A stretch of DNA of 64,000 nucleotides from Lodderomyces elongisporus (Eukaryota; Ascomycota; Pichiomycetes; Serinales; Debaryomycetaceae). This document shows, in pieces, positions 1 to 34,410 of the stretch. How positions within the stretch are numbered: the first letter of the stretch is position 1; the number at the start of each line of letters is the position of its first letter. The notes below the pieces were generated by a model. That model had not been told where the DNA came from. It was given only the letters and a program-made list of their open reading frames with translations, and did no database searches. Where the stretch lies: contig NC_083680.1 in the NCBI RefSeq assembly GCF_030384665.1, positions 901,001-965,000 of the forward strand, written 5' to 3'. The position numbers and the translations under genes are program-made.

Positions 1-176
1 AGAACTGATATAGGATCCAACGTAGGGTTCAACCTGGAACCCGGCCTATATGATGTAAATGTATGGGGCGGGGAGAAGGGGAGGGAGTAGCTGAGCCCAC
101 AGTTTTCCTCAAACTTCAGTAGAAAAATGTTTCCCTGTAAATTCGCACCAGACTTGCTGGAATAATCAACACGCAA

Positions 177-228
177 AAACAATTCTCGACTCATTGCCGT
201 CAAACTTGCAATGAGTCGAGAATTGTTT
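177..228. repeat. Perfect hairpin, 21-bp arms and 10-nt loop (unit 1)
   Basis: Left arm 177-197 and right arm 208-228 are exact reverse complements around the loop cgtcaaactt. The arm core reads ttctcgactcattgc. It lies about 330 bp upstream of the TATA-like box. It could extrude as a cruciform or fold in RNA. No tract of T follows, so it is not a simple terminator, and its role is unknown. Confidence 0.95.
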
Positions 229-387
229 GTGGAGATAGAATGCATTGCAGGATGTATAAGGTTGTAGATTGTGTTAAGCCAACATGCATCCAAACATACA
301 ATTTATCCACTCTGGTCGTCCGCTATCTGATACAGCCACACACTATTGGCAGCACCCATTTGGTTTTTTTGATATGACGCGTTTGGT

Positions 388-668
388 AGCGCATACAATT
401 GCACACGCACTGCTGAGCTACCAGAAGGGACTTCCTCGCCCTTCTGTTCCCCTCACTTCCTCGCGGGTTTTGCAACCAAAATGTATATGGCATAACACAA
501 GTTACTTGTTAATCCCCAACCACAAGGCGTGACTGGAGGGCTACCTGGTGAAGTATAAATATCCACAAACAAAACCCTTGTGACCTCAAACCTTCTTTTA
601 CCCTTTTCTTCTTCTTCTTTTCCTTCTTCTTTTCCTTCTTCTTTTCTTTCTTCTTTTCCTTCTTTTAC
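388..668 (+). promoter_or_regulatory. Main-ORF promoter and leader (unit 1; same layout in all units)
   Basis: The block at 388-424 matches the inverted relic at 34861-34897 at 33 of 37 positions. Further matches follow around 470-500 (atgtatatggcat) and at the TATA-like box 554-560 (tataaat). A pyrimidine tract of cttcttttc-type repeats runs from about 591 to 668 and varies in copy number among units (short in units 5 and 6, longest in 3 and 7). The ATG lies about 90 bp further on. Conservation between the array and a long-diverged copy supports a promoter role. No transcript data are available. Confidence 0.55.
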
Positions 669-759
669 CAGAATTAAACATACAACCAAGCCTTACTCGA
701 TAACCTTAACCAGATTTTATCATCAATAATCGAGGAAGACTACAATTTAAAAATTAACA

Positions 760-2371
760 ATGCCCTTTTTTAATAAATGTTTTCAAAATGTCTTTGCAAA
801 GGATTCCGAACCCGCCAAACCCAAGGTTCGGTTTTTACTTCCAGGGGAGTCATCAGGCTCACCAATCTTAGAACCCAGCTCAGTCTATAGGGACTTCAGG
901 TATCTAAGAAAAGCTGGAACTGAAACTTATGGCGAGATTTTTCAGAATAAGCTGGATTACACAGAGCCATCAACCGGAATACCATTAATTAGAAGGCGCG
1001 CTTTAGAAGCTGAGAATGCAAAGCAACCACCAAAGAACAGCCCTCCGCATTTCTCTCCACCAAAGTCGATCTTTGTACGCATTGCGGAGGATCCACGTGT
1101 TTTTCCCGATGATTTTATGGATATGCTGGATGGCACAGAAGTATCAGTTGCGTCAGAATCAGTTGTTTTGCAAAATGCAGAGTCAAGTTTGATCTATAAT
1201 AAACTTAGAGGTCCAGTAAATTTTGGAATTGATTTTTCCTCCGAGAGTCGCCAGACAAGGAGGGAGGATATAATTACGGAATCTGACACAGTAACAATCC
1301 TGAGGAGTGCTTCCCAAGTAGAGGAGGCATCCAATAACAGCTTCACCTCGCCCTATGACAGTCCAAGCCAACTTCAATTTCATGTTGCTAATGAAACCAC
1401 AGATGGAAACGCGGATGTACCATGTACATCTGCCTTATCAGAATTTGAGTCTAGCTCGGTGTATGATGATGAAATCATTCCGAGAGAGGCTCCATATCAT
1501 ATTGCTATTAAAACCACAGATGGAAACGCGGATGTACCATGTACATCTGCCTTATCAGAATTTGAGTCTAGCTCGGTGTATGATGATGAAATCATTCCGA
1601 GAGAGGCTCCATATCATGTTGCTATTAAAACCACAGATGGAAACGCGGATGTACCATGTACATCTGCCTTATCAGAATTTGAGTCTAGCTCGGTGTATGA
1701 TGATGAAATCATTCCGAGAGAGGCTCCATATCATGTTGCTATTGAAACCACAGATGGAAACGCGGATGTACCATGTACATCTGCCTTATCAGAATTTGAG
1801 TCTAGCTCGGTGTATGATGATGAAATCATTCCGAGAGAGGCTCCATATCATGTTGCTATTGAAACCACAGATGGAAACACGGATGTACCGTATACATCTT
1901 TTATACCAGAATTAGAGTCTAGCTCGCCCTATGACTTTCCAAGCGCATTTCCATTTCATGTTGCTATTGAAACCATAGATGGAAACGCGGATATACCGTA
2001 TACATCTGTCTTACTGGTATCAGCCCCCTTGTCAGATGCTGTGAGCTCAGTTGAAAGAACCAATTGGAATGACCAAAACTCAGAGGACTGCGATTTTGTT
2101 TCTGTGGATATTAGGATTCCAGAGGAAAACGATTCCTGTATGAATCAATTAAAGGAGCCTAAAAAGAGTAGGATACCACTGTTCAAATTGTTTGCACGGC
2201 TCAAGAAGAGCAGAAAGACTCTGTTTAAACCGTTTTCATGGTTCAAGAAGAGCAAAACGACTCTGTTCAAACCGTTTGCATGGCTAAAGAAACGGGCAGA
2301 AAAGAAGGAGTTAATAGAAAAAGTTGTTTTGGCTGAAAGTGATGATCAACAACAACAACTGCTGCTAAAAG

Positions 2372-2403
<32 letters not shown>

Positions 2404-2416
2404 CTGCTGCTAAAAG

Positions 2417-2484
<68 letters not shown>

Positions 2485-2877
2485 CTGCTGCTAAAAGAAC
2501 TACAACAACAACAACAACAACAACAGCTACAACAACTACTACAACAACAACAACTACAACAACAACAACAACTATTACAACAACAACAACTATTACAACA
2601 ACAACAACAACAACAACTATTACAACAACAACTACTATTACAACAACAACAACTATTACAACAACAACAACTATTACAACAACAACAACTATTACAACAA
2701 CAACAACTATTACAACAACAACTACAACAACAACAACAACAACTACTATTACAACAACAACAACTACAACAACTACAACAACAACTACAACAACAACAAC
2801 AACAACTACAACAACAACAACAACAACTACAACAACAACAACAACCGTCGCTACCTCAACCATTTGAACTAGTGTGA
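760..2877 (+). CDS. Array ORF unit 1: repeat-rich, probably disordered protein of unknown function (705 aa)
   Basis: I do not recognise this protein. Seen: a unique N-terminal part (1-207); four nearly perfect 39-residue repeats (208-363) rich in Asp, Glu and Ser; two degenerate repeats (to about 426); a basic region with three 14-residue repeats of the type KKS-x-x-x-LFKPF-x-W-x from residue 468; and a 166-residue Gln/Leu tract (530-695) coded almost only by CAA, CTA and TTA. A ten-residue tail ends in PFELV. No signal peptide or membrane segment is visible. The ATG at 760 is the first of the frame and follows a TATA-like box by about 200 bp. All seven copies stay open, and the repeat-number changes keep the frame, which argues for a coding role. 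CTG codons (for example residue 123 and the LLLKE motifs) would be Ser in a CUG-Ser yeast. The acid, base and Gln blocks suggest an assembly or prion-like protein, but this is inference. Confidence 0.72.
1381..1848 (+). repeat. 117-bp in-frame repeat, 4 copies (unit 1)
   Basis: Each copy encodes 39 residues that start with His and run through TTDGNADVPC, a Ser/Glu-rich stretch and YDDEIIPREAPY. Copies differ mainly at the linker codons (AAT GAA, AAA or GAA before ACC ACA) and in GTT/ATT. Two degenerate copies follow to about 2030. Motifs of this size inside yeast ORFs fit what is called a megasatellite, known for example from Candida glabrata genes. Confidence 0.97.
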
Positions 2878-2957
2878 TATCGATATCACAAAAGAAACAC
2901 AAAACACGAAAAACACAACACAAACTAAAAATAAAAACAATATTAACCAGAAAAACA

Positions 2958-3758
2958 TCAATTTCTTCCACTTTGACAAGTTTAAGACTCCCGTCGATTC
3001 ATACTGCGGTGAATTGTGCCAATAGATCTGAGCTGCAGTTAACTTTGCAGACATCCATTACATGAATAGCACTAAACTGGGAACTAAGAGCCATTCTGAG
3101 GGCGACTTCATTACACTTTATAAGAGGGTCCCCATACTGCAGGTCACAGAAGAAGCCTTCAATAAGGTGATCTCGTCCCGCCCAGAGTTGCTTGATATGG
3201 TCCTTAGAAATTCCCTTCTCTGTCTAAAGCTACCACCGATACTGTCACTGATGCTATTTCTGATGTTACCTCTGTTGCTGCTTCACGGATGACTATATCA
3301 CAAACCCAACCATGATCCCAAAGCAGGGGAGCCCACTGACCTCTGCTACCGTTTCCCATAGCCTACCACAACATTGCACTAGTGTAGCTGCTGACTCACA
3401 CATTTATTCTGAACTTGGCAGATCCTGCGACAAAATGGCGCCTTTGTCGTATGATCTTGTACGGGGGACGAAAAATGTCGAGGACGCATATGCACTAGGG
3501 GTATCAACAAGGCACAGCGGGATCATATAATCACAGGTTGAGTTGTATAAGTCACCGTGCAAGTTGTTTCAGATGGTGCAGAAGAAAAGCTTGTGGAATC
3601 TGCTTCCGGGGTCTGTTAATGTTGCATCAAAATCATTGTTTGCTCGTGTTGGAATAGCACCACTAATATTTATCATATTTATCATATTTATTATATCCAA
3701 CATATTTATTATAGTGTGTGCTATCCGACGTCGACCAAACTCAAACTATGCCATTTAA
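2958..3758 (+). pseudogene. Frameshifted coding fossil with C-terminal membrane segment (unit 1)
   Basis: Protein-like stretches occur one after another in changing frames: INFFHFDKFKTPVDSYCGEL, then two stops (3023, 3029), then the frame through 3208 with EEAFNKVISSRPELLDMVLR. Next come SKATTDTVTDAISDV (to 3311), SHIYSELGRSCDKMAPLSYD (to 3530) and a short VVSDGAEEKLVESASGV. The last is GIAPLIFIIFIIFIISNIF followed by IIVCAIRRR and a stop at 3758. The final part looks like one membrane helix with a basic cytosolic end. This could be the lost C-terminal part of the upstream ORF or a separate dead gene. All seven units carry the same breaks, so decay came before amplification. Confidence 0.4.
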
Positions 3759-3787
3759 ACTTGTCAAAAATGTTTCTGGTGTTATTC

Positions 3788-4180
3788 CTGGTTGTGTCAC
3801 TGGTTGTGTCACTGGTTGTGTTACTGGTTGAGTCACTGGTTGAGTTACTGGTTGTGTCACTGGTTGTGTCACTGGTTGAGTTACTAGTTGAGTTACTAGT
3901 TGAGTTACTAGTTGTGTCACTGGTTGTGTCACTGGTTGTGTCACTGGTTGTGTCACTGGTTGAGTTACTGGTTGTGTCACTGGTTGAGTTACTAGTTGAG
4001 TTACTGGTTGTGTCACTGGTTGAGTTACTGGTTGAGTTACTGGTTGAGTCACTGGTTGTGTCACTGGTTGAGTTACTGGTTGAGTCACTGGTTGTGTTGC
4101 TGGTTGTGTTGCTGATGGTGTTGCTGATGGTGTTGCTGATGGTGTTGCTGATGGTGTTGCTGATGGTGTTGCTGTTCCTG
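3788..4180. repeat. 12-bp minisatellite, about 31 copies; antisense frame reads Thr-Gln-Pro-Val (unit 1)
   Basis: Plus-strand variants are gtcactggttgt, gttactggttga, gttactagttga and relatives, followed by gctgatggtgtt copies. On the minus strand one frame is open from 4238 to 3741 and reads five TPSA, one TQPA and then TQPV/TQLV repeats. Two of the three common variable positions are third codon positions in this frame (GTG/GTA and ACA/ACT); the third gives Pro or Leu. The frame has no ATG: it opens at a GTG at 4238. The nearest ATG (4261, minus strand) is in another frame and would join it only with one extra base in an A9 run. It may be a decayed Thr/Pro-rich gene or a non-coding minisatellite. 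Confidence 0.9.
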
Positions 4181-4411
4181 CTATTAATCTTTGCACTTTT
4201 TTTTTAATATTAACACACCTTTCTGTTTTTGTATGCACTCTGCTATTTGTAATTGAACCATTTTTCTATTTCGCACTCAGCCTACAAATTATTTCTCAAA
4301 TTGAACGTTCTGTATATTTCGCGCAATCGCTGTCATTGTAAACTGTAGTATCTCGGGTTGGAGTATGTGTATGTGTGCGCGCACGTGAGCTGCTGTGAAC
4401 GAGTCAACCTT

Positions 4412-4532
4412 AGATACACGTAGGATACACGTAGGATACACGTAAGAAACACGTAGGACACAGGTAGGATACACGTAAGACACATGTAGGAGACAGGTAG
4501 GATACAGGTAAGGTACAGGTTAGATACACATA
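4412..4532. repeat. 11-bp tandem repeat, 11 copies, consensus ggatacacgta (unit 1)
   Basis: Eleven consecutive 11-mers with one to three differences each. A gcgcgcacgtg stretch precedes and three copies of an aaaactttaca-type repeat follow (about 4556-4595). The period is not a multiple of three, so it is unlikely to be coding. It is longer than a dinucleotide satellite and unlike the yeast telomere repeats I know. Confidence 0.9.
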
Positions 4533-4819
4533 AGATGGACGCGCGGGTGCGTGTATACTTTACAAAAAACTTTACATAAAACTTTACAAAAACCACTACA
4601 GTGGGCAGCAGCATTGATAGGAGCACGATTCCCCCTATGTTCTAGAACTGATATAGGATCCAACGTAGGGTTCAACCTGGAACCCGGCCTATATGATGTA
4701 AATGTATGGGGCGGGGAGAAGGGGAGGGAGTAGCTGAGCCCACAGTTTTCCTCAAACTTCAGTAGAAAAATGTTTCCCTGTAAATTCGCACCAGACTTGC
4801 TGGAATAATCAACACGCAA

Positions 4820-4871
4820 AAACAATTCTCGACTCATTGCCGTCAAACTTGCAATGAGTCGAGAATTGTTT
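4820..4871. repeat. Perfect hairpin (unit 2)
   Basis: Identical in arms and loop to the unit 1 hairpin. Confidence 0.95.
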
Positions 4872-5402
4872 GTGGAGATAGAATGCATTGCAGGATGTAT
4901 AAGGTTGTAGATTGTGTTAAGCCAACATGCATCCAAACATACAATTTATCCACTCTGGTCGTCCGCTATCTGATACAGCCACACACTATTGGCAGCACCC
5001 ATTTGGTTTTTTTGATATGACGCGTTTGGTAGCGCATACAATTGCACACGCACTGCTGAGCTACCAGAAGGGACTTCCTCGCCCTTCTGTTCCCCTCACT
5101 TCCTCGCGGGTTTTGCAACCAAAATGTATATGGCATAACACAAGTTACTTGTTAATCCCCAACCACAAGGCGTGACTGGAGGGCTACCTGGTGAAGTATA
5201 AATATCCACAAACAAAACCCTTGTGACCTCAAACCTTCTTTTACCCTTTTCTTCTTCTTCTTTTCCTTCTTCTTTTCCTTCTTCTTTTCTTTCTTCTTTT
5301 CCTTCTTTTACCAGAATTAAACATACAACCAAGCCTTACTCGATAACCTTAACCAGATTTTATCATCAATAATCGAGGAAGACTACAATTTAAAAATTAA
5401 CA

Positions 5403-7014
5403 ATGCCCTTTTTTAATAAATGTTTTCAAAATGTCTTTGCAAAGGATTCCGAACCCGCCAAACCCAAGGTTCGGTTTTTACTTCCAGGGGAGTCATCAGG
5501 CTCACCAATCTTAGAACCCAGCTCAGTCTATAGGGACTTCAGGTATCTAAGAAAAGCTGGAACTGAAACTTATGGCGAGATTTTTCAGAATAAGCTGGAT
5601 TACACAGAGCCATCAACCGGAATACCATTAATTAGAAGGCGCGCTTTAGAAGCTGAGAATGCAAAGCAACCACCAAAGAACAGCCCTCCGCATTTCTCTC
5701 CACCAAAGTCGATCTTTGTACGCATTGCGGAGGATCCACGTGTTTTTCCCGATGATTTTATGGATATGCTGGATGGCACAGAAGTATCAGTTGCGTCAGA
5801 ATCAGTTGTTTTGCAAAATGCAGAGTCAAGTTTGATCTATAATAAACTTAGAGGTCCAGTAAATTTTGGAATTGATTTTTCCTCCGAGAGTCGCCAGACA
5901 AGGAGGGAGGATATAATTACGGAATCTGACACAGTAACAATCCTGAGGAGTGCTTCCCAAGTAGAGGAGGCATCCAATAACAGCTTCACCTCGCCCTATG
6001 ACAGTCCAAGCCAACTTCAATTTCATGTTGCTAATGAAACCACAGATGGAAACGCGGATGTACCATGTACATCTGCCTTATCAGAATTTGAGTCTAGCTC
6101 GGTGTATGATGATGAAATCATTCCGAGAGAGGCTCCATATCATGTTGCTATTGAAACCACAGATGGAAACGCGGATGTACCATGTACATCTGCCTTATCA
6201 GAATTTGAGTCTAGCTCGGTGTATGATGATGAAATCATTCCGAGAGAGGCTCCATATCATGTTGCTATTAAAACCACAGATGGAAACGCGGATGTACCAT
6301 GTACATCTGCCTTATCAGAATTTGAGTCTAGCTCGGTGTATGATGATGAAATCATTCCGAGAGAGGCTCCATATCATGTTGCTATTGAAACCACAGATGG
6401 AAACGCGGATGTACCATGTACATCTGCCTTATCAGAATTTGAGTCTAGCTCGGTGTATGATGATGAAATCATTCCGAGAGAGGCTCCATATCATGTTGCT
6501 ATTGAAACCACAGATGGAAACACGGATGTACCGTATACATCTTTTATACCAGAATTAGAGTCTAGCTCGCCCTATGACTTTCCAAGCGCATTTCCATTTC
6601 ATGTTGCTATTGAAACCATAGATGGAAACGCGGATATACCGTATACATCTGTCTTACTGGTATCAGCCCCCTTGTCAGATGCTGTGAGCTCAGTTGAAAG
6701 AACCAATTGGAATGACCAAAACTCAGAGGACTGCGATTTTGTTTCTGTGGATATTAGGATTCCAGAGGAAAACGATTCCTGTATGAATCAATTAAAGGAG
6801 CCTAAAAAGAGTAGGATACCACTGTTCAAATTGTTTGCACGGCTCAAGAAGAGCAGAAAGACTCTGTTTAAACCGTTTTCATGGTTCAAGAAGAGCAAAA
6901 CGACTCTGTTCAAACCGTTTGCATGGCTAAAGAAACGGGCAGAAAAGAAGGAGTTAATAGAAAAAGTTGTTTTGGCTGAAAGTGATGATCAACAACAACA
7001 ACTGCTGCTAAAAG

Positions 7015-7046
<32 letters not shown>

Positions 7047-7059
7047 CTGCTGCTAAAAG

Positions 7060-7127
<68 letters not shown>

Positions 7128-7520
7128 CTGCTGCTAAAAGAACTACAACAACAACAACAACAACAACAGCTACAACAACTACTACAACAACAACAACTAC
7201 AACAACAACAACAACTATTACAACAACAACAACTATTACAACAACAACAACAACAACAACTATTACAACAACAACTACTATTACAACAACAACAACTATT
7301 ACAACAACAACAACTATTACAACAACAACAACTATTACAACAACAACAACTATTACAACAACAACTACAACAACAACAACAACAACTACTATTACAACAA
7401 CAACAACTACAACAACAACAACAACAACTACAACAACAACAACAACAACTACAACAACAACAACAACAACTACAACAACAACAACAACCGTCGCTACCTC
7501 AACCATTTGAACTAGTGTGA
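5403..7520 (+). CDS. Array ORF unit 2 (705 aa)
   Basis: Paralogue of the unit 1 ORF with the same length, four 39-residue repeats (6024-6491) and a 166-residue Gln/Leu tract. It carries Phe46, Asn147 and Phe155 as in unit 1. The second repeat begins with a Glu-type linker (AIETT) where unit 1 has Lys, and one Leu in the last part of the Gln tract is replaced by Gln. These look like shuffling of repeat variants and not point mutation of the whole gene. Confidence 0.72.
6024..6491 (+). repeat. 117-bp in-frame repeat, 4 copies (unit 2)
   Basis: Linker order Asn-Glu, Ile-Glu, Ile-Lys, Ile-Glu, which differs from unit 1 at the second copy. Confidence 0.97.
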
Positions 7521-10057: not shown

Positions 10058-11669
10058 ATGCCCTTTTTTAATAAATGTTTTCAAAATGTCTTTGCAAAGG
10101 ATTCCGAACCCGCCAAACCCAAGGTTCGGTTTTTACTTCCAGGGGAGTCATCAGGCTCACCAATCTTAGAACCCAGCTCAGTCTATAGGGACTCCAGGTA
10201 TCTAAGAAAAGCTGGAACTGAAACTTATGGCGAGATTTTTCAGAATAAGCTGGATTACACAGAGCCATCAACCGGAATACCATTAATCAGAAGGCGCGCT
10301 TTAGAAGCTGAGAATGCAAAGCAACCACCAAAGAACAGCCCTCCGCATTTCTCTCCACCAAAGTCGATCTTTGTACGCATTGCGGAGGATCCACGTGTTT
10401 TTCCCGATGATTTTATGGATATGCTGGATGGCACAGAAGTATCAGTTGCGTCAGAATCAGTTGTTTTGCAAAATGCAGAGTCAAGTTTGATCTATGATAA
10501 ACTTAGAGGTCCAGTAAATATTGGAATTGATTTTTCCTCCGAGAGTCGCCAGACAAGGAGGGAGGATATAATTACGGAATCTGACACAGTAACAATCCTG
10601 AGGAGTGCTTCACAAGTAGAGGAGGCATCCAATAACAGCTTCACCTCGCCCTATGACAGTCCAAGCCAACTTCAATTTCATGTTGCTAATGAAACCACAG
10701 ATGGAAACGCGGATGTACCATGTACATCTGCCTTATCAGAATTTGAGTCTAGCTCGGTGTATGATGATGAAATCATTCCGAGAGAGGCTCCATATCATAT
10801 TGCTATTAAAACCACAGATGGAAACGCGGATGTACCATGTACATCTGCCTTATCAGAATTTGAGTCTAGCTCGGTGTATGATGATGAAATCATTCCGAGA
10901 GAGGCTCCATATCATGTTGCTATTAAAACCACAGATGGAAACGCGGATGTACCATGTACATCTGCCTTATCAGAATTTGAGTCTAGCTCGGTGTATGATG
11001 ATGAAATCATTCCGAGAGAGGCTCCATATCATGTTGCTATTGAAACCACAGATGGAAACGCGGATGTACCATGTACATCTGCCTTATCAGAATTTGAGTC
11101 TAGCTCGGTGTATGATGATGAAATCATTCCGAGAGAGGCTCCATATCATGTTGCTATTGAAACCACAGATGGAAACACGGATGTACCGTATACATCTTTT
11201 ATACCAGAATTAGAGTCTAGCTCTCCCTATGACTTTCCAAGCGCATTTCCATTTCATGTTGCTATTGAAACCATAGATGGAAACGCGGATATACCGTATA
11301 CATCTGTCTTACTGGTATCAGCCCCCTTGTCAGATGCTGTGAGCTCAGTTGAAAGAACCAATTGGAATGACCAAAACTCAGAGGACTGCGATTTTGTTTC
11401 TGTGGATATTAGGATTCCAGAGGAAAACGATTCCTGTATGAATCAATTAAAGGAGCCTAAAAAGAGTAGGATACCACTGTTCAAATTGTTTGCACGGCTC
11501 AAGAAGAGCAGAAAGACTCTGTTTAAACCGTTTTCATGGTTCAAGAAGAGCAAAACGACTCTGTTCAAACCGTTTGCATGGCTAAAGAAACGGGCAGAAA
11601 AGAAGGAGTTAATAGAAAAAGTTGTTTTGGCTGAAAGTGATGATCAACAACAACAACTGCTGCTAAAAG

Positions 11670-11701
<32 letters not shown>

Positions 11702-11714
11702 CTGCTGCTAAAAG

Positions 11715-11791
<77 letters not shown>

Positions 11792-12169
11792 CTGCTGCTA
11801 AAAGAACTACAACAACAACAACAACAGCTACAACAACTACTACAACAACAACAACTACAACAACAACAACAACTATTACAACAACAACAACTATTACAAC
11901 AACAACAACAACAACAACTATTACAACAACAACTACTATTACAACAACAACAACTATTACAACAACAACAACTATTACAACAACAACAACTATTACAACA
12001 ACAACAACAACAACAACAACTATTACAACAACAACTACAACAACAACAACAACAACTACTATTACAACAACAACAACTACAACAACAACAACAACAACTA
12101 CAACAACAACAACAACAACTACAACAACAACAACAACCGTCGCTACCTCAACCATTTGAACTAGTGTGA
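10058..12169 (+). CDS. Array ORF unit 3 (703 aa)
   Basis: Paralogue of the unit 1 ORF with four 39-residue repeats (10679-11146) and a 164-residue Gln/Leu tract. Distinguishing residues are Ser46, Asp147 and Ile155, with a silent TCA at Ser184 and a private silent change near 11223. The first pure Gln run after the second LLLKE motif is longer than in unit 1, while the following run is shorter. Confidence 0.72.
10679..11146 (+). repeat. 117-bp in-frame repeat, 4 copies (unit 3)
   Basis: Same linker order as unit 1 (Asn, Lys, Lys, Glu), with the His-Ile variant before the second copy. Confidence 0.97.
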
Positions 12170-14778: not shown

Positions 14779-16628
14779 ATGCCCTTTTTTAATAAATGTT
14801 TTCAAAATGTCTTTGCAAAGGATTCCGAACCCGCCAAACCCAAGGTTCGGTTTTTACTTCCAGGGGAGTCATCAGGCTCACCAATCTTAGAACCCAGCTC
14901 AGTCTATAGGGACTCCAGGTATCTAAGAAAAGCTGGAACTGAAACTTATGGCGAGATTTTTCAGAATAAGCTGGATTACACAGAGCCATCAACCGGAATA
15001 CCATTAATCAGAAGGCGCGCTTTAGAAGCTGAGAATGCAAAGCAACCACCAAAGAACAGCCCTCCGCATTTCTCTCCACCAAAGTCGATCTTTGTACGCA
15101 TTGCGGAGGATCCACGTGTTTTTCCCGATGATTTTATGGATATGCTGGATGGCACAGAAGTATCAGTTGCGTCAGAATCAGTTGTTTTGCAAAATGCAGA
15201 GTCAAGTTTGATCTATGATAAACTTAGAGGTCCAGTAAATATTGGAATTGATTTTTCCTCCGAGAGTCGCCAGACAAGGAGGGAGGATATAATTACGGAA
15301 TCTGACACAGTAACAATCCTGAGGAGTGCTTCACAAGTAGAGGAGGCATCCAATAACAGCTTCACCTCGCCCTATGACAGTCCAAGCCAACTTCAATTTC
15401 ATGTTGCTAATGAAACCACAGATGGAAACGCGGATGTACCATGTACATCTGCCTTATCAGAATTTGAGTCTAGCTCGGTGTATGATGATGAAATCATTCC
15501 GAGAGAGGCTCCATATCATATTGCTATTAAAACCACAGATGGAAACGCGGATGTACCATGTACATCTGCCTTATCAGAATTTGAGTCTAGCTCGGTGTAT
15601 GATGATGAAATCATTCCGAGAGAGGCTCCATATCATATTGCTATTAAAACCACAGATGGAAACGCGGATGTACCATGTACATCTGCCTTATCAGAATTTG
15701 AGTCTAGCTCGGTGTATGATGATGAAATCATTCCGAGAGAGACTCCATATCATGTTGCTATTAAAACCACAGATGGAAACGCGGATGTACCATGTACATC
15801 TGCCTTATCAGAATTTGAGTCTAGCTCGGTGTATGATGATGAAATCATTCCGAGAGAGGCTCCATATCATGTTGCTATTGAAACCACAGATGGAAACGCG
15901 GATGTACCATGTACATCTGCCTTATCAGAATTTGAGTCTAGCTCGGTGTATGATGATGAAATCATTCCGAGAGAGGCTCCATATCATGTTGCTATTGAAA
16001 CCACAGATGGAAACACGGATGTACCGTATACATCTTTTATACCAGAATTAGAGTCTAGCTCGCCCTATGACTTTCCAAGCGCATTTCCATTTCATGTTGC
16101 TATTGAAACCATAGATGGAAACGCGGATATACCGTATACATCTGTCTTACTGGTATCAGCCCCCTTGTCAGATGCTGTGAGCTCAGTTGAAAGAACCAAT
16201 TGGAATGACCAAAACTCAGAGGACTGCGATTTTGTTTCTGTGGATATTAGGATTCCAGAGGAAAACGATTCCTGTATGAATCAATTAAAGGAGCCTAAAA
16301 AGAGTAGGATACCACTGTTCAAATTGTTTGCACGGCTCAAGAAGAGCAGAAAGACTCTGTTTAAACCGTTTTCATGGTTCAAGAAGAGCAAAACGACTCT
16401 GTTCAAACCGTTTGCATGGCTAAAGAAACGGGCAGAAAAGAAGGAGTTAATAGAAAAAGTTGTTTTGGCTGAAAGTGATGATCAACAACAACAACTGCTG
16501 CTAAAAGAACAACAACAACAACTATTACAACAACAACAACTATTACAACAACAACAACAACAACAACAACTATTACAACAACAACTACAACAACAACAAC
16601 AACAACTACTATTACAACAACAACAACT

Positions 16629-16671
<43 letters not shown>

Positions 16672-16722
16672 CTACAACAACAACAACAACCGTCGCTACC
16701 TCAACCATTTGAACTAGTGTGA
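14779..16722 (+). CDS. Array ORF unit 4, contracted Gln tract (647 aa)
   Basis: Shortest paralogue. It has five 39-residue repeats (15400-15984), one with a private Ala-to-Thr change (PRETPYH). The Gln/Leu tract is only 69 residues (16483-16689), about 97 shorter than in unit 1. Two of the three LLLKE-type motifs are lost, as from one in-frame deletion inside the CAA repeats. The reading frame survives to the same C-terminal tail, so this copy is a natural test of whether the long tract is needed. Confidence 0.72.
15400..15984 (+). repeat. 117-bp in-frame repeat, 5 copies (unit 4)
   Basis: Linker order Asn, Lys, Lys, Lys, Glu. One Lys copy is duplicated relative to unit 3. Confidence 0.97.
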
Positions 16723-19295: not shown

Positions 19296-21492
19296 ATGCC
19301 CTTTTTTAATAAATGTTTTCAAAATGTCTTTGCAAAGGATTCCGAACCCGCCAAACCCAAGGTTCGGTTTTTACTTCCAGGGGAGTCATCAGGCTCACCA
19401 ATCTTAGAACCCAGCTCAGTCTATAGGGACTCCAGGTATCTAAGAAAAGCTGGAACTGAAACTTATGGCGAGATTTTTCAGAATAAGCTGGATTACACAG
19501 AGCCATCAACCGGAATACCATTAATCAGAAGGCGCGCTTTAGAAGCTGAGAATGCAAAGCAACCACCAAAGAACAGCCCTCCGCATTTCTCTCCACCAAA
19601 GTCGATCTTTGTACGCATTGCGGAGGATCCACGTGTTTTTCCCGATGATTTTATGGATATGCTGGATGGCACAGAAGTATCAGTTGCGTCAGAATCAGTT
19701 GTTTTGCAAAATGCAGAGTCAAGTTTGATCTATAATAAACTTAGAGGTCCAGTAAATTTTGGAATTGATTTTTCCTCCGAGAGTCGCCAGACAAGGAGGG
19801 AGGATATAATTACGGAATCTGACACAGTAACAATCCTGAGGAGTGCTTCCCAAGTAGAGGAGGCATCCAATAACAGCTTCACCTCGCCCTATGACAGTCC
19901 AAGCCAACTTCAATTTCATGTTGCTAATGAAACCACAGATGGAAACGCGGATGTACCATGTACATCTGCCTTATCAGAATTTGAGTCTAGCTCGGTGTAT
20001 GATGATGAAATCATTCCGAGAGAGGCTCCATATCATATTGCTATTAAAACCACAGATGGAAACGCGGATGTACCATGTACATCTGCCTTATCAGAATTTG
20101 AGTCTAGCTCGGTGTATGATGATGAAATCATTCCGAGAGAGGCTCCATATCATGTTGCTATTAAAACCACAGATGGAAACGCGGATGTACCATGTACATC
20201 TGCCTTATCAGAATTTGAGTCTAGCTCGGTGTATGATGATGAAATCATTCCGAGAGAGGCTCCATATCATGTTGCTATTGAAACCACAGATGGAAACGCG
20301 GATGTACCATGTACATCTGCCTTATCAGAATTTGAGTCTAGCTCGGTGTATGATGATGAAATCATTCCGAGAGAGGCTCCATATCATGTTGCTATTGAAA
20401 CCACAGATGGAAACGCGGATGTACCATGTACATCTGCCTTATCAGAATTTGAGTCTAGCTCGGTGTATGATGATGAAATCATTCCGAGAGAGGCTCCATA
20501 TCATGTTGCTATTGAAACCACAGATGGAAACGCGGATGTACCATGTACATCTGCCTTATCAGAATTTGAGTCTAGCTCGGTGTATGATGATGAAATCATT
20601 CCGAGAGAGGCTCCATATCATGTTGCTATTGAAACCACAGATGGAAACGCGGATGTACCATGTACATCTGCCTTATCAGAATTTGAGTCTAGCTCGGTGT
20701 ATGATGATGAAATCATTCCGAGAGAGGCTCCATATCATGTTGCTATTGAAACCACAGATGGAAACGCGGATGTACCATGTACATCTGCCTTATCAGAATT
20801 TGAGTCTAGCTCGGTGTATGATGATGAAATCATTCCGAGAGAGGCTCCATATCATGTTGCTATTGAAACCACAGATGGAAACGCGGATGTACCATGTACA
20901 TCTGCCTTATCAGAATTTGAGTCTAGCTCGGTGTATGATGATGAAATCATTCCGAGAGAGGCTCCATATCATGTTGCTATTGAAACCACAGATGGAAACA
21001 CGGATGTACCGTATACATCTTTTATACCAGAATTAGAGTCTAGCTCGCCCTATGACGTTCCAAGCGCATTTCCATTTCATGTTGCTATTGAAACCATAGA
21101 TGGAAACGCGGATATACCGTATACATCTGTCTTACTGGTATCAGCCCCCTTGTCAGATGCTGTGAGCTCAGTTGAAAGAACCAATTGGAATGACCAAAAC
21201 TCAGAGGACTGCGATTTTGTTTCTGTGGATATTAGGATTCCAGAGGAAAACGATTCCTGTATGAATCAATTAAAGGAGCCTAAAAAGAGTAGGATACCAC
21301 TGTTCAAATTGTTTGCACGGCTCAAGAAGAGCAGAAAGACTCTGTTTAAACCGTTTTCATGGTTCAAGAAGAGCAAAACGACTCTGTTCAAACCGTTTGC
21401 ATGGCTAAAGAAACGGGCAGAAAAGAAGGAGTTAATAGAAAAAGTTGTTTTGGCTGAAAGTGATGATCAACAACAACAACTGCTGCTAAAAG

Positions 21493-21524
<32 letters not shown>

Positions 21525-21537
21525 CTGCTGCTAAAAG

Positions 21538-21593
<56 letters not shown>

Positions 21594-21880
21594 CTGCTGC
21601 TAAAAGAACTACAACAACAACAACAACAGCTACAACAACTACTACAACAACAACAACTACAACAACAACAACAACTATTACAACAACAACAACTATTACA
21701 ACAACAACAACAACAACAACTATTACAACAACAACTACTATTACAACAACAACAACTATTACAACAACAACAACTATTACAACAACAACAACTATTACAA
21801 CAACAACAACAACAACAACAACTATTACAACAACAACTACAACAACAACAACAACAACTACTATTACAACAACAACAACT

Positions 21881-21923
<43 letters not shown>

Positions 21924-21974
21924 CTACAACAACAACAACAACCGTCGCTACCTCAACCATTTGAACTAGTGTGA
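19296..21974 (+). CDS. Array ORF unit 5, nine 39-residue repeats (892 aa)
   Basis: Paralogue with nine 39-residue repeats (19917-20969), mostly of the Glu-linker type (AIETT), and a 158-residue Gln/Leu tract. The first repeats keep the older order of Asn, Lys, Lys, Glu linkers, and the extra copies are all of the Glu type. Expansion therefore came from duplicating that variant internally. It shares Val in the DVPSAF motif after the repeats with unit 7 only. Confidence 0.72.
19917..20969 (+). repeat. 117-bp in-frame repeat, 9 copies (unit 5)
   Basis: Linker order Asn, Lys, Lys, then six Glu copies that appear identical to each other. Confidence 0.97.
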
Positions 21975-24547: not shown

Positions 24548-26744
24548 ATGCCCTTTTTTAATAAATGTTTTCAAAATGTCTTTGCAAAGGATTCCGAACC
24601 CGCCAAACCCAAGGTTCGGTTTTTACTTCCAGGGGAGTCATCAGGCTCACCAATCTTAGAACCCAGCTCAGTCTATAGGGACTCCAGGTATCTAAGAAAA
24701 GCTGGAACTGAAACTTATGGCGAGATTTTTCAGAATAAGCTGGATTACACAGAGCCATCAACCGGAATACCATTAATCAGAAGGCGCGCTTTAGAAGCTG
24801 AGAATGCAAAGCAACCACCAAAGAACAGCCCTCCGCATTTCTCTCCACCAAAGTCGATCTTTGTACGCATTGCGGAGGATCCACGTGTTTTTCCCGATGA
24901 TTTTATGGATATGCTGGATGGCACAGAAGTATCAGTTGCGTCAGAATCAGTTGTTTTGCAAAATGCAGAGTCAAGTTTGATCTATGATAAACTTAGAGGT
25001 CCAGTAAATATTGGAATTGATTTTTCCTCCGAGAGTCGCCAGACAAGGAGGGAGGATATAATTACGGAATCTGACACAGTAACAATCCTGAGGAGTGCTT
25101 CCCAAGTAGAGGAGGCATCCAATAACAGCTTCACCTCGCCCTATGACAGTCCAAGCCAACTTCAATTTCATGTTGCTAATGAAACCACAGATGGAAACGC
25201 GGATGTACCATGTACATCTGCCTTATCAGAATTTGAGTCTAGCTCGGTGTATGATGATGAAATCATTCCGAGAGAGGCTCCATATCATATTGCTATTAAA
25301 ACCACAGATGGAAACGCGGATGTACCATGTACATCTGCCTTATCAGAATTTGAGTCTAGCTCGGTGTATGATGATGAAATCATTCCGAGAGAGGCTCCAT
25401 ATCATATTGCTATTAAAACCACAGATGGAAACGCGGATGTACCATGTACATCTGCCTTATCAGAATTTGAGTCTAGCTCGGTGTATGATGATGAAATCAT
25501 TCCGAGAGAGGCTCCATATCATGTTGCTATTGAAACCACAGATGGAAATGCGGATGTACCATGTACATCTGCCTTATCAGAATTTGAGTCTAGCTCGGTG
25601 TATGATGATGAAATCATTCCGAGAGAGGCTCCATATCATGTTGCTATTGAAACCACAGATGGAAACGCGGATGTACCATGTACATCTGCCTTATCAGAAT
25701 TTGAGTCTAGCTCGGTGTATGATGATGAAATCATTCCGAGAGAGGCTCCATATCATGTTGCTATTGAAACCACAGATGGAAACGCGGATGTACCATGTAC
25801 ATCTGCCTTATCAGAATTTGAGTCTAGCTCGGTGTATGATGATGAAATCATTCCGAGAGAGGCTCCATATCATGTTGCTATTGAAACCACAGATGGAAAC
25901 GCGGATGTACCATGTACATCTGCCTTATCAGAATTTGAGTCTAGCTCGGTGTATGATGATGAAATCATTCCGAGAGAGGCTCCATATCATGTTGCTATTG
26001 AAACCACAGATGGAAACGCGGATGTACCATGTACATCTGCCTTATCAGAATTTGAGTCTAGCTCGGTGTATGATGATGAAATCATTCCGAGAGAGGCTCC
26101 ATATCATGTTGCTATTGAAACCACAGATGGAAACGCGGATGTACCATGTACATCTGCCTTATCAGAATTTGAGTCTAGCTCGGTGTATGATGATGAAATC
26201 ATTCCGAGAGAGGCTCCATATCATGTTGCTATTGAAACCACAGATGGAAACACGGATGTACCGTATACATCTTTTATACCAGAATTAGAGTCTAGCTCGC
26301 CCTATGACTTTCCAAGCGCATTTCCATTTCATGTTGCTATTGAAACCATAGATGGAAACGCGGATATACCGTATACATCTGTCTTACTGGTATCAGCCCC
26401 CTTGTCAGATGCTGTGAGCTCAGTTGAAAGAACCAATTGGAATGACCAAAACTCAGAGGACTGCGATTTTGTTTCTGTGGATATTAGGATTCCAGAGGAA
26501 AACGATTCCTGTATGAATCAATTAAAGGAGCCTAAAAAGAGTAGGATACCACTGTTCAAATTGTTTGCACGGCTCAAGAAGAGCAGAAAGACTCTGTTTA
26601 AACCGTTTTCATGGTTCAAGAAGAGCAAAACGACTCTGTTCAAACCGTTTGCATGGCTAAAGAAACGGGCAGAAAAGAAGGAGTTAATAGAAAAAGTTGT
26701 TTTGGCTGAAAGTGATGATCAACAACAACAACTGCTGCTAAAAG

Positions 26745-26785
<41 letters not shown>

Positions 26786-26801
26786 CTGCTGCTGCTAAAA
26801 G

Positions 26802-26857
<56 letters not shown>

Positions 26858-27142
26858 CTACAACAACAACAACAACAACAACAACAACAGCTACAACAAC
26901 AACTACTACAACAACAACAACAACTATTACAACAACAACAACAACTACTACTATTACAACAACAACAACTATTACAACAACAACAACTATTACAACAACA
27001 ACAACTATTACAACAACAACAACTATTACAACAACAACAACTACAACAACTACAACAACAACAACAACAACTACAACAACAACAACAACAACTACAACAA
27101 CAACAACAACCGTCGCTACCTCAACCATTTGAACTAGTGTGA
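24548..27142 (+). CDS. Array ORF unit 6, nine repeats and rearranged Gln tract (864 aa)
   Basis: Nine 39-residue repeats (25169-26221), with a private silent C-to-T change in the fourth. The Gln/Leu tract is 130 residues and differs from the other copies in structure: one motif has four Leu (LLLLKE), the third LLLKE-type motif is missing, and the Leu spacing downstream differs. N-terminal markers match units 3 and 4, but the Ser184 codon matches the others. Confidence 0.72.
25169..26221 (+). repeat. 117-bp in-frame repeat, 9 copies (unit 6)
   Basis: Linker order Asn, Lys, Lys, then six Glu copies. The first Glu copy has a private silent substitution (near 25549). Confidence 0.97.
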
Positions 27143-27222
27143 TATCGATATCACGAAAGAAACACAAAACACGAAAAACACAACACAAACTAAAAATAAA
27201 AACAATATTAACCAGAAAAACA

Positions 27223-28023: not shown

Positions 28024-28052
28024 ACTTGTCAAAAATGTTTCTGGTGTTATTC

Positions 28053-28748: not shown

Positions 28749-28869
28749 AGATACACGTAGGATACACGTAGGATACACGTAAGAAACACGTAGGACACAG
28801 GTAGGATACACGTAAGACACATGTAGGAGACAGGTAGGATACAGGTAAGGTACAGGTTAGATACACATA
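28749..28869. repeat. 11-bp tandem repeat (unit 6)
   Basis: Same order of variants as unit 1. This is the last copy, because unit 7 breaks off before this element. Confidence 0.9.
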
Positions 28870-29156
28870 AGATGGACGCGCGGGTGCGTGTATACTTTAC
28901 AAAAAACTTTACATAAAACTTTACAAAAACCACTACAGTGGGCAGCAGCATTGATAGGAGCACGATTCCCCCTATGTTCTAGAACTGATATAGGATCCAA
29001 CGTAGGGTTCAACCTGGAACCCGGCCTATATGATGTAAATGTATGGGGCGGGGAGAAGGGGAGGGAGTAGCTGAGCCCACAGTTTTCCTCAAACTTCAGT
29101 AGAAAAATGTTTCCCTGTAAATTCGCACCAGACTTGCTGGAATAATCAACACGCAA

Positions 29157-29208
29157 AAACAATTCTCGACTCATTGCCGTCAAACTTGCAATGAGTCGAG
29201 AATTGTTT
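29157..29208. repeat. Perfect hairpin (unit 7)
   Basis: Identical in arms and loop to the unit 1 hairpin. The inverted relic beyond the array edge shows no clear counterpart. Confidence 0.95.
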
Positions 29209-29751
29209 GTGGAGATAGAATGCATTGCAGGATGTATAAGGTTGTAGATTGTGTTGAGCCAACATGCATCCAAACATACAATTTATCCACTCTGGTCGTC
29301 CGCTATCTGATACAGCCACACACTATTGGCAGCACCCATTTGGTTTTTTTGATATGACGCGTTTGGTAGCGCATACAATTGCACACGCACTGCTGAGCTA
29401 CCAGAAGGGACTTCCTCGCCCTTCTGTTCCCCTCACTTCCTCGCGGGTTTTGCAACCAAAATGTATATGGCATAACACAAGTTACTTGTTAATCCCCAAC
29501 CACAAGGCGTGACTGGAGGGCTACCTGGTGAAGTATAAATATCCACAAACAAAACCCTTGTGACCTCAAACCTTCTTTTACCCTTTTCTTCTTCTTCTTT
29601 TCCTTCTTCTTTTCCTTCTTCTTTTCCTTCTTCTTTTCCTTCTTCTTTTCCTTCTTTTACCAGAATTAAACATACAACCAAGCCTTACTCGATAACCTTA
29701 ACCAGATTTTATCATCAATAATCGAGGAAGACTACAATTTAAAAATTAACA

Positions 29752-32416
29752 ATGCCCTTTTTTAATAAATGTTTTCAAAATGTCTTTGCAAAGGATTCCG
29801 AACCCGCCAAACCCAAGGTTCGGTTTTTACTTCCAGGGGAGTCATCAGGCTCACCAATCTTAGAACCCAGCTCAGTCTATAGGGACTCCAGGTATCTAAG
29901 AAAAGCTGGAACTGAAACTTATGGCGAGATTTTTCAGAATAAGCTGGATTACACAGAGCCATCAACCGGAATACCATTAATCAGAAGGCGCGCTTTAGAA
30001 GCTGAGAATGCAAAGCAACCACCAAAGAACAGCCCTCCGCATTTCTCTCCACCAAAGTCGATCTTTGTACGCATTGCGGAGGATCCACGTGTTTTTCCCG
30101 ATGATTTTATGGATATGCTGGATGGCACAGAAGTATCAGTTGCGTCAGAATCAGTTGTTTTGCAAAATGCAGAGTCAAGTTTGATCTATAATAAACTTAG
30201 AGGTCCAGTAAATTTTGGAATTGATTTTTCCTCCGAGAGTCGCCAGACAAGGAGGGAGGATATAATTACGGAATCTGACACAGTAACAATCCTGAGGAGT
30301 GCTTCCCAAGTAGAGGAGGCATCCAATAACAGCTTCACCTCGCCCTATGACAGTCCAAGCCAACTTCAATTTCATGTTGCTAATGAAACCACAGATGGAA
30401 ACGCGGATGTACCATGTACATCTGCCTTATCAGAATTTGAGTCTAGCTCGGTGTATGATGATGAAATCATTCCGAGAGAGGCTCCATATCATATTGCTAT
30501 TAAAACCACAGATGGAAACGCGGATGTACCATGTACATCTGCCTTATCAGAATTTGAGTCTAGCTCGGTGTATGATGATGAAATCATTCCGAGAGAGGCT
30601 CCATATCATGTTGCTATTGAAACCACAGATGGAAACGCGGATGTACCATGTACATCTGCCTTATCAGAATTTGAGTCTAGCTCGGTGTATGATGATGAAA
30701 TCATTCCGAGAGAGGCTCCATATCATGTTGCTATTGAAACCACAGATGGAAACGCGGATGTACCATGTACATCTGCCTTATCAGAATTTGAGTCTAGCTC
30801 GGTGTATGATGATGAAATCATTCCGAGAGAGGCTCCATATCATGTTGCTATTGAAACCACAGATGGAAACGCGGATGTACCATGTACATCTGCCTTATCA
30901 GAATTTGAGTCTAGCTCGGTGTATGATGATGAAATCATTCCGAGAGAGGCTCCATATCATGTTGCTATTGAAACCACAGATGGAAACGCGGATGTACCAT
31001 GTACATCTGCCTTATCAGAATTTGAGTCTAGCTCGGTGTATGATGATGAAATCATTCCGAGAGAGGCTCCATATCATGTTGCTATTGAAACCACAGATGG
31101 AAACGCGGATGTACCATGTACATCTGCCTTATCAGAATTTGAGTCTAGCTCGGTGTATGATGATGAAATCATTCCGAGAGAGGCTCCATATCATGTTGCT
31201 ATTGAAACCACAGATGGAAACGCGGATGTACCATGTACATCTGCCTTATCAGAATTTGAGTCTAGCTCGGTGTATGATGATGAAATCATTCCGAGAGAGG
31301 CTCCATATCATGTTGCTATTGAAACCACAGATGGAAACGCGGATGTACCATGTACATCTGCCTTATCAGAATTTGAGTCTAGCTCGGTGTATGATGATGA
31401 AATCATTCCGAGAGAGGCTCCATATCATGTTGCTATTGAAACCACAGATGGAAACGCGGATGTACCATGTACATCTGCCTTATCAGAATTTGAGTCTAGC
31501 TCGGTGTATGATGATGAAATCATTCCGAGAGAGGCTCCATATCATGTTGCTATTGAAACCACAGATGGAAACGCGGATGTACCATGTACATCTGCCTTAT
31601 CAGAATTTGAGTCTAGCTCGGTGTATGATGATGAAATCATTCCGAGAGAGGCTCCATATCATGTTGCTATTGAAACCACAGATGGAAACGCGGATGTACC
31701 ATGTACATCTGCCTTATCAGAATTTGAGTCTAGCTCGGTGTATGATGATGAAATCATTCCGAGAGAGGCTCCATATCATGTTGCTATTGAAACCACAGAT
31801 GGAAACGCGGATGTACCATGTACATCTGCCTTATCAGAATTTGAGTCTAGCTCGGTGTATGATGATGAAATCATTCCGAGAGAGGCTCCATATCATGTTG
31901 CTATTGAAACCACAGATGGAAACACGGATGTACCGTATACATCTTTTATACCAGAATTAGAGTCTAGCTCGCCCTATGACGTTCCAAGCGCATTTCCATT
32001 TCATGTTGCTATTGAAACCATAGATGGAAACGCGGATATACCGTATACATCTGTCTTACTGGTATCAGCCCCCTTGTCAGATGCTGTGAGCTCAGTTGAA
32101 AGAACCAATTGGAATGACCAAAACTCAGAGGACTGCGATTTTGTTTCTGTGGATATTAGGATTCCAGAGGAAAACGATTCCTGTATGAATCAATTAAAGG
32201 AGCCTAAAAAGAGTAGGATACCACTGTTCAAATTGTTTGCACGGCTCAAGAAGAGCAGAAAGACTCTGTTTAAACCGTTTTCATGGTTCAAGAAGAGCAA
32301 AACGACTCTGTTCAAACCGTTTGCATGGCTAAAGAAACGGGCAGAAAAGAAGGAGTTAATAGAAAAAGTTGTTTTGGCTGAAAGTGATGATCAACAACAA
32401 CAACTGCTGCTAAAAG

Positions 32417-32448
<32 letters not shown>

Positions 32449-32461
32449 CTGCTGCTAAAAG

Positions 32462-32514
<53 letters not shown>

Positions 32515-32783
32515 CTGCTGCTAAAAGAACTACAACAACAACAACAACAGCTACAACAACTACTACAACAACAACAACTACAACAACAACAACAACTATT
32601 ACAACAACAACAACTATTACAACAACAACAACAACAACAACTATTACAACAACAACTACTATTACAACAACAACAACTATTACAACATCAACAACTATTA
32701 CAACAACAACAACTATTACAACAACAACAACAACAACAACTATTACAACAACAACTACAACAACAACAACAACAACTACTATT

Positions 32784-32817
<34 letters not shown>

Positions 32818-32889
32818 CTACAACAACAACAACAACAACTACAACAACAACAACAACCGTCGCTACCTCAACCATTTGAACTAGTGTGA
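29752..32889 (+). CDS. Array ORF unit 7, thirteen 39-residue repeats (1045 aa)
   Basis: Longest paralogue, at the right end of the array. Thirteen 39-residue repeats (30373-31893) make up nearly half the protein: the first has the Asn linker, the second Lys, and eleven the Glu linker with almost no differences among them, so the expansion is recent. The Gln/Leu tract has 155 residues with one His interruption (near 32687). N-terminal markers and Val in DVPSAF match unit 5. Confidence 0.72.
30373..31893 (+). repeat. 117-bp in-frame repeat, 13 copies (unit 7)
   Basis: Linker order Asn, Lys, then eleven Glu copies with no difference that I could see between them. Confidence 0.97.
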
Positions 32890-32969
32890 TATCGATATCA
32901 CAAAAGAAACACAAAACACGAAAAACACAACACAAACTAAAAATAAAAACAATATTAACCAGAAAAACA

Positions 32970-33770
32970 TCAATTTCTTCCACTTTGACAAGTTTAAGAC
33001 TCCCGTCGATTCATACTGCGGTGAATTGTGCCAATAGATCTGAGCTGCAGTTAACTTTGCAGACATCCATTACATGAATAGCACTAAACTGGGAACTAAG
33101 AGCCATTCTGAGGGCGACTTCATTACACTTTATAAGAGGGTCCCCATACTGCAGGTCACAGAAGAAGCCTTCAATAAGGTGATCTCGTCCCGCCCAGAGT
33201 TGCTTGATATGGTCCTTAGAAATTCCCTTCTCTGTCTAAAGCTACCACCGATACTGTCACTGATGCTATTTCTGATGTTACCTCTGTTGCTGCTTCACGG
33301 ATGACTATATCACAAACCCAACCATGATCCCAAAGCAGGGGAGCCCACTGACCTCTGCTACCGTTTCCCATAGCCTACCACAACATTGCACTAGTGTAGC
33401 TGCTGACTCACACATTTATTCTGAACTTGGCAGATCCTGCGACAAAATGGCGCCTTTGTCGTATGATCTTGTACGGGGGACGAAAAATGTCGAGGACGCA
33501 TATGCACTAGGGGTATCAACAAGGCACAGCGGGATCATATAATCACAGGTTGAGTTGTATAAGTCACCGTGCAAGTTGTTTCAGATGGTGCAGAAGAAAA
33601 GCTTGTGGAATCTGCTTCCGGGGTCTGTTAATGTTGCATCAAAATCATTGTTTGCTCGTGTTGGAATAGCACCACTAATATTTATCATATTTATCATATT
33701 TATTATATCCAACATATTTATTATAGTGTGTGCTATCCGACGTCGACCAAACTCAAACTATGCCATTTAA
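32970..33770 (+). pseudogene. Frameshifted coding fossil (unit 7)
   Basis: Same breaks as in unit 1, although this is the terminal unit. Confidence 0.4.
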
Positions 33771-33799
33771 ACTTGTCAAAAATGTTTCTGGTGTTATTC

Positions 33800-34252
33800 C
33801 TGGTTGTGTCACTGGTTGTGTCACTGGTTGTGTTACTGGTTGAGTCACTGGTTGAGTTACTGGTTGAGTTACTAGTTGTGTTACTGGTTGAGTTACTGGT
33901 TGTGTCACTGGTTGTGTCACTGGTTGAGTTACTAGTTGAGTTACTAGTTGTGTCACTGGTTGTGTCACTGGTTGTGTTACTGGTTGTGTCACTGGTTGAG
34001 TTACTAGTTGAGTTACTGGTTGTGTCACTGGTTGAGTTACTGGTTGTGTCACTGGTTGTGTCACTGGTTGAGTTACTGGTTGTGTCACTGGTTGAGTTAC
34101 TAGTTGAGTTACTGGTTGTGTCACTGGTTGAGTTACTGGTTGAGTTACTGGTTGAGTCACTGGTTGTGTTGCTGGTTGTGTTGCTGATGGTGTTGCTGAT
34201 GGTGTTGCTGATGGTGTTGCTGATGGTGTTGCTGATGGTGTTGCTGTTCCTG
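33800..34252. repeat. 12-bp minisatellite, about 36 copies (unit 7)
   Basis: One gttactggttga copy fewer than units 5 and 6 near the end. Antisense open frame 34310-33753. Confidence 0.9.
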
Positions 34253-34410
34253 CTATTAATCTTTGCACTTTTTTTTTAATATTAACACACCTTTCTATTT
34301 TTGTATGCACTCTGCTATTTGTAATTGAACCATTTTTCTATTTCGCACTCAGCCTACAAATTATCTCCCAAATTGAACGTTCTGTATATTTCGCGCAATC
34401 GCTGTCATTG

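Follow-up and report, generated by a model that had tools for sequence, protein, structure and literature searches.

A family of gene-bearing tandem arrays of apparent PIP-kinase-like origin in the yeast Lodderomyces elongisporus

A stretch of 64,000 nucleotides of Lodderomyces elongisporus DNA (contig NC_083680.1, here C8, positions 901001-965000; hereafter the window) carries the right-hand part of a tandem array of eight long genes. The genome analysed comprises 16,086,460 bases in eight contigs, C1 to C8. Sequence comparison indicates that this array belongs to a family of about 140 gene copies, arranged in tandem arrays on seven chromosomes, and that the family derives from a protein of the phosphatidylinositol phosphate (PIP) kinase fold whose recognisable motifs are gone. 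On the same grounds, the genes of the window are a truncated, frame-changed branch of this PIP-kinase-like pseudokinase family. The function of the proteins can be proposed conditionally, and several readings are weighed below.

The first-pass annotation of the window had described seven tandem copies of a gene-sized unit, and all seven complete open reading frames (ORFs) are present, at the positions listed in Table 1. The array was also expected to run on beyond the left edge. This is correct, and the continuation amounts to one further gene, which starts at C8:897171, immediately left of the window; the left end of the array lies at about C8:896671. The lengths of the eight genes lie between 647 and 1045 codons; what sets the genes apart is mainly how many 117-bp repeats they have and how long the tract is. 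The gene starts are spaced by 4517 to 5252 bp. Copy numbers of arrays are given as in the assembled sequence. Aligned bases of the eight units diverge by 0.18 to 1.43%, which supports the homogenisation suggested earlier. The units form two blocks of similar neighbours, 1-3 and 5-8, with unit 4 separate, and unit 8 is closest to unit 6 rather than to the adjacent unit 7. These blocks are compatible with unequal exchange. Every one of the seven window units has its own TATA stretch as well as an ORF, in keeping with the proposed promoter-plus-ORF design; the stretch is identical in all seven, and its core is common to six further units that were aligned. All of the nested repeats reported before (117, 42, 12, 11 and 3 bp) were found by Tandem Repeats Finder, together with a CT-rich 12-bp repeat and a 9/18-bp repeat. 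The last unit lacks the 11-bp array, because its similarity to the other units ends at about 34410. Rfam and tRNA scans of the window gave no match, and an array of RNA genes of the rDNA type was rejected for it.

The picture of an isolated single locus had to be abandoned. A 53-bp spacer tag matches the genome 144 times with up to three mismatches (plus strand 43, minus strand 101), and these matches are the basis of the family size given above. A 31-bp gene-start tag matches 64 times, and a genome search with the N-terminal 210 residues of the window protein gives 107 matches. The 100 spacer-tag matches listed, out of the 144, fall on C2 (58), C3 (13), C4 (9), C6 (13) and C7 (7). Genes of the window type number 37 in the N-terminal search, with 8 on C8, 13 on C3 and 16 on C7. 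Further arrays were found on C2 (both strands), C4, C5, C6 and at a second site on C8, and tandem arrays of family genes are thus present on contigs C2 to C8. No family copy lies on C1 among the matches listed, where FAB1 is the sole related match. Of the 16 C7 units, 15 match a 701-bp stretch of spacer from the last window unit at full score. The family clusters listed sum to about 0.54 Mb, or 3.3% of the 16-Mb genome. At C2:2182-2398 kb, arrays on opposite strands face each other around a gap; at C3:550-664 kb and C8:747-935 kb, such arrays diverge around a gap.

A profile search of a database of 5.8 billion proteins identified eight relatives among 7999 candidates scored. Six are from L. 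elongisporus, and two are ENA records that lie 6 and 12 residues from the single unit read of their type when CTG Leu/Ser differences are excluded. These two may come from other strains, or may simply be other copies. The named relatives are labelled hypothetical or predicted protein. A description of these arrays was not found in the open-licence PMC papers searched, and the available portions of the assembly paper make no mention of them (PMC10586162). The public gene models in the NCBI records P0123 and P0124 deviate from the plain ORFs, as if introns had been predicted; the P0123 model extends into the spacer, and Asn/Thr tracts are absent.

The origin of the family was traced through the related arrays. 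One unit each was read from the C5, C6, C2-plus, C4 and C2-minus arrays, and the encoded proteins begin alike, with M-x-(F/I)-F, and a central domain is common to them. A profile built from seven relatives matched PI5P4K chains (PI5P4K-beta) in the PDB at E 1.3e-16. A second family profile, which has six sequences in common with the first, matched PI5P4K chains at 2.5e-14. The family profile aligns to the PI5P4K structures over about 180 residues. Two database relatives of the C2-minus type, P0121 (29.6 bits) and P0123 (28.9 bits), exceed the 27-bit cut-off of the Pfam family PIP5K (PF01504). A family hidden Markov model (HMM) gave 70 bits for a relic downstream of the window ORF (in one frame only), 31 for FAB1, 18 for the window ORF and 13 for MSS4, and at most 3.1 bits for eight neighbouring proteins. 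The 18 bits of the window ORF come from the shared N terminus. DLKGS and MDYSLL are catalytic motifs, and MSS4 of the same genome carries both. When six family rows were aligned to MSS4, DLKGS had no conserved counterpart in them, and the position of MDYSLL was occupied by GYKLL, NYKLV, GFKFV or DFKWL. We read the proteins of the related arrays as pseudokinases. The C6-type protein has a C-terminal hydrophobic stretch, which is less clear in the C5-type protein.

The window gene, earlier described as being of unknown origin, can now be placed as a truncated derivative of such a PIP-kinase-like pseudokinase gene. The closest full-length relative found is P0128, which is represented on C3 by four genes, two on each strand. 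The window ORF and P0128 have their first 42 residues in common, at 57% identity, and a weaker likeness extends from the basic motif to the sequence VLAE, after which the frames diverge. In the frame of the ORF, a Gln/Leu tract runs up to the stop codon. The other frame encodes an Asn-rich linker and then the kinase-like relic. The tract had been taken as a hint of a condensate-forming protein, and it is the Asn-rich linker in a changed frame. Among the matches listed (103 of 223 candidates scored), the relic contains one TGA and two TAG codons in 34 of 37 window-type units: 8/8 on C8, 16/16 on C7 and 10/13 on C3. The same relic stops are present on three chromosomes, and therefore the truncation probably predates the amplification and the spread across them. 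The basic repeats of the window protein have a net charge of +11 over residues 801-880. The basic patch of MARCKS binds membranes and phosphoinositides, and the window repeats resemble patches of this kind.

The spacers and the coding regions of the family behave differently. Between types, the 3' spacer diverges by 4 to 10% (0.4 and 1.3% in two same-type pairs), and the coding dS (synonymous divergence) ranges from 0.82 to saturated, with a protein identity of 19 to 44%, in a comparison that excludes the window type, which has no kinase-like domain. The C5 and C2-plus units differ at 2 of 263 bases (0.8%) in the hairpin module, by 28.7% in the promoter module, and to saturation in coding dS. 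The promoter module of C5 is 8.1% from that of the window type. The spacer hairpin of the window has a z score of -7.8, and related inverted repeats were found in five other types aligned. Its core in the window unit aligns in reverse to C5, C2-plus and C2-minus at 91% and to C6 and C4 at 80%, as if the core had been flipped. The spacer modules give conflicting relationships, and the best explanation for such mosaics is that arrays of different chromosomes have exchanged DNA, which we regard as strongly supported. The 3' spacer was also considered as a second gene; in the single frame that was tested, its variable sites are distributed 3/8/5 over the codon positions, and this candidate was rejected.

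The reading frames carry some signs of constraint. For each of the 37 window-type matches to the N terminus, the frame is free of stops over at least 634 codons, and the C5, C6 and C2-plus matches listed in the same search are open frames too. Between types, dN/dS (nonsynonymous over synonymous divergence) is 0.42/0.85 for C5-C6 and 0.50/1.43 for C5-C4. The first 630 bp of 30 of the 37 window-type copies, drawn from three chromosomes, contain five synonymous and four non-synonymous variable sites. The binomial p for five of nine synonymous sites against a neutral share of 21.5% is 0.026, with mutation bias not modelled. A further 486-bp region has one synonymous and one non-synonymous site in the eight C8 units; for the codon comparison of the 3' half, the anchor was present in 8 of 20 units, all from C8. 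In seven C8 units, 38 of 3222 columns are variable in the coding sequence and 64 of 2633 in the rest.

We favour, with moderate confidence, the reading that the window is one array of a satellite-like, PIP-kinase-derived family in which a truncated branch was amplified, arrays exchange spacers, and the proteins have regulatory or scaffolding roles. The sequences show that the window branch lost its kinase-like domain by frame change and truncation, and that this branch was amplified. Unequal exchange would let the arrays expand, contract and homogenise, and spacer modules would be swapped between chromosomes with the coding core remaining specific to each array. Transcription would proceed from the conserved TATA promoter. 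The proteins may act at membranes or phosphoinositides by way of their basic patches, a part that the hydrophobic C terminus would take in two other types, and they might serve as dosage-dependent pseudo-enzyme regulators or scaffolds.

Several observations count against this reading. Only two of the seven database relatives, both of one type, are above the PIP5K cut-off, with three below it and two unmatched. None of the four genome-read proteins reaches it; two are sub-threshold and two unmatched. With MSS4 as a single sequence, hhalign gave a weak result, at a probability of 7%, and P0128, the protein with DFKWL, retains the Asp of MDYSLL. The window protein matched no Pfam family at E 0.01. 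Among 1069 candidates, none matched its N-terminal 210 residues at E 0.001; the first-pass annotation had proposed a query of this kind. Spacer conservation is uneven: when same-type pairs and the degenerate relic are excluded, the hairpin module diverges by 0.8 to 20% between types, and the range for the promoter module is 8 to 29%. The evidence for codon constraint on the window branch is modest, with nine sites. Gap lengths are multiples of three in 28 of 28 coding gaps, but also in 7 of 7 spacer gaps, in a count that omits the last unit. Finally, six C4 matches cross two TAA codons, and one C8 family copy contains a TGA.

The window branch might instead be a dead by-product, a truncated pseudogene that was amplified passively and is not translated or has no function, with only the full-length types functional. 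The domain loss by frame change and truncation is common to the copies listed, the tract is of low complexity, and the evidence for selection is weak, and all of this would fit. Yet every one of the 37 copies is open, the TATA stretch and the N terminus are retained, and the coding sequence of the seven C8 units has fewer variable columns than the rest; we consider this alternative unlikely. Ranked below it, and offered tentatively, is a cassette system in which the shared spacer modules would be a recombining, homogenising shell around fast-changing ORF cores, all from one captured lipid-kinase-like gene. The family would then be no ordinary duplicated family but a gene satellite that propagates itself and might act as a driver or organise chromosomes. 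It is improbable, in our judgement, that the arrays act as landmarks of the chromosomes, as pericentromeric DNA or DNA like a major repeat, and serve chromosome structure with the ORFs as passengers. Clusters do occur on seven of the eight chromosomes, the 3' spacer is better conserved than the genes, opposite-strand arrays are found on C2, C3 and C8, and in Candida albicans all but one of the eight chromosomes carry tandem repeats (PMC6896093, available text). Frames are nevertheless open in all window-type matches and in the C5, C6 and C2-plus matches listed, although some copies on C4 and C8 contain stops; dN is lower than dS between types; and C8 has two separate clusters and a solo copy.

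Less probable than chromosomal landmarks is a selfish family, in which a meiotic driver or self-promoting gene gains in its own transmission from coding turnover and copy growth, and for which the wtf genes of fission yeast provide the comparison. To our knowledge, drivers of the wtf type are dispersed, unlike these long arrays. Neither a toxin-antidote pair nor an alternative start nor a meiotic promoter has been demonstrated here, and the excess of dS over dN between types speaks against this reading as well. On its side are the many copies, the variable core with common flanks, the mosaic exchange, the finding that the six named database relatives, of eight in all, are all from L. elongisporus, and the ability of the species to produce asci with ascospores (PMC10484426, available text). 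An assembly error is an unlikely source of the array, because the type strain, NRRL YB-4239, was assembled from HiFi reads of more than 20 kb into eight gapless contigs that agree with the karyotype, according to the available text of the assembly paper (PMC10586162). In addition, the units are distinct in repeat numbers and single bases, and the ENA records contain copies of two family types that have diverged somewhat. We regard an artefact that inflates the copy number as extremely improbable.

The array is flanked by two RNase H1 genes, the only ones found in the genome. Their RNase H domains are 60% identical, and the closest database record to the RNase H1 of the window, at 44% identity, is the left-flanking paralogue. 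A solo C6-type gene at C8:872764-874407 (L012) has spacer pieces on both sides in direct orientation, as if it were the remnant of a collapsed longer array. A broken, diverged P0128-type relative with stop codons lies at C8:824553-825625. The features of the window and its flanks are collected in Table 1.

Table 1. Features of the array and its flanks (window positions unless C8 is given)
Feature	Position	Strand	Remark
Array, right-hand part of 8-gene tandem	1..34410	+	full extent about C8:896671-935410
Array gene 2/8	760..2877	+	705 codons
Array gene 3/8	5403..7520	+	705 codons
Array gene 4/8	10058..12169	+	703 codons
Array gene 5/8	14779..16722	+	647 codons
Array gene 6/8	19296..21974	+	892 codons
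Array gene 7/8	24548..27142	+	864 codons
Array gene 8/8, reference unit	29752..32889	+	1045 codons
117-bp (39-codon) acidic repeats, within gene	30372..31971	+	each of the eight array genes has 3 to 13 tagged copies
42-bp (14-codon) basic/aromatic repeats	32224..32336	+	SF(K/R)..W(L/F)K-type motif, also in C2-plus and P0128 types
Gln/Leu tract	32392..32857	+	Asn-rich linker if read in relic frame
Broken relic of first part of PIP-kinase-like domain	32890..33244	+	3' of ORF stop, other frame
3' spacer, non-coding	33243..33680	+	common to array types compared
12-bp spacer repeats	33800..34246	+	unit sequence not the same in some array types
11-bp spacer repeats	28750..28866	+	six such arrays in window, none beyond last gene
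TATA-box stretch 5' of gene	29533..29550	+	equivalents at 553, 5196, 9839, 14572, 19113, 24365
Spacer hairpin, 21-bp stem, 10-nt loop	29157..29208	.	copies near 180, 4823, 9466, 14199, 18740, 23992
Degenerate inverted promoter and gene start, C4/C2-minus type	34473..34897	-	just beyond array
RNase H1 paralogue, right flank	35410..36417	+	acidic DEYS-repeat linker
RNase H1, left flank	C8:895243-896208		

As a gene-bearing satellite, the family is unusual in its size, in its apparent pseudokinase origin, in its pattern of a shared shell with a variable core, and in its occurrence in a compact yeast genome. The apparent exchange of spacers between chromosomes coexists with diverging coding cores. 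A lipid-kinase-like gene has been losing its motifs here, and one branch was amplified despite the loss of its domain. Whether the host, the chromosome or the satellite itself is the beneficiary of such gene satellites becomes a testable question.

The family can be compared with several known systems. The profile of the related arrays is similar to the PIP kinases (PF01504; MSS4, FAB1, PI5P4K) over the kinase core, but the family rows aligned are without intact DLKGS and MDYSLL, P0128 having the Asp of the latter. The window ORF itself shows no such similarity, which is confined to the broken relic past its stop codon. The major repeat sequences (MRS) of Candida albicans, found on seven of its eight chromosomes, are built of kilobase tandem units that contain nested repeats (PMC6896093, available text), and tandem kilobase units on several chromosomes are present here as well. 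The RPS units of the MRS are about 2 kb long and often flanked by RB2 and HOK, whereas each unit here holds a whole gene. A scan limited to the window found neither COM29, with up to three mismatches, nor an SfiI site, and MRS membership was rejected for the window. In the megasatellites of Candida glabrata, a motif roughly 100 to 400 bp long is repeated within a gene in 3 to 32 copies (PMC4556013, available text), and the 117-bp in-gene repeat, with its 3 to 13 tagged copies, is of this kind. Those megasatellites sit in genes with a possible role in adhesion; in the present arrays, the repetition extends to whole genes. Adhesin-like cell-wall features were not seen in the window protein by Pfam search (no match) or hydropathy (best 19-residue window 0.78), no dedicated signal-peptide tool having been used. 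Human gene-bearing megasatellites such as RS447/USP17 are like the present arrays in that the tandem unit holds a gene and is unstable in transmission (title cited in PMC2588610). In contrast to RS447/USP17, a single family here extends across seven chromosomes in a genome of 16 Mb, and its coding cores have diverged between related spacers.

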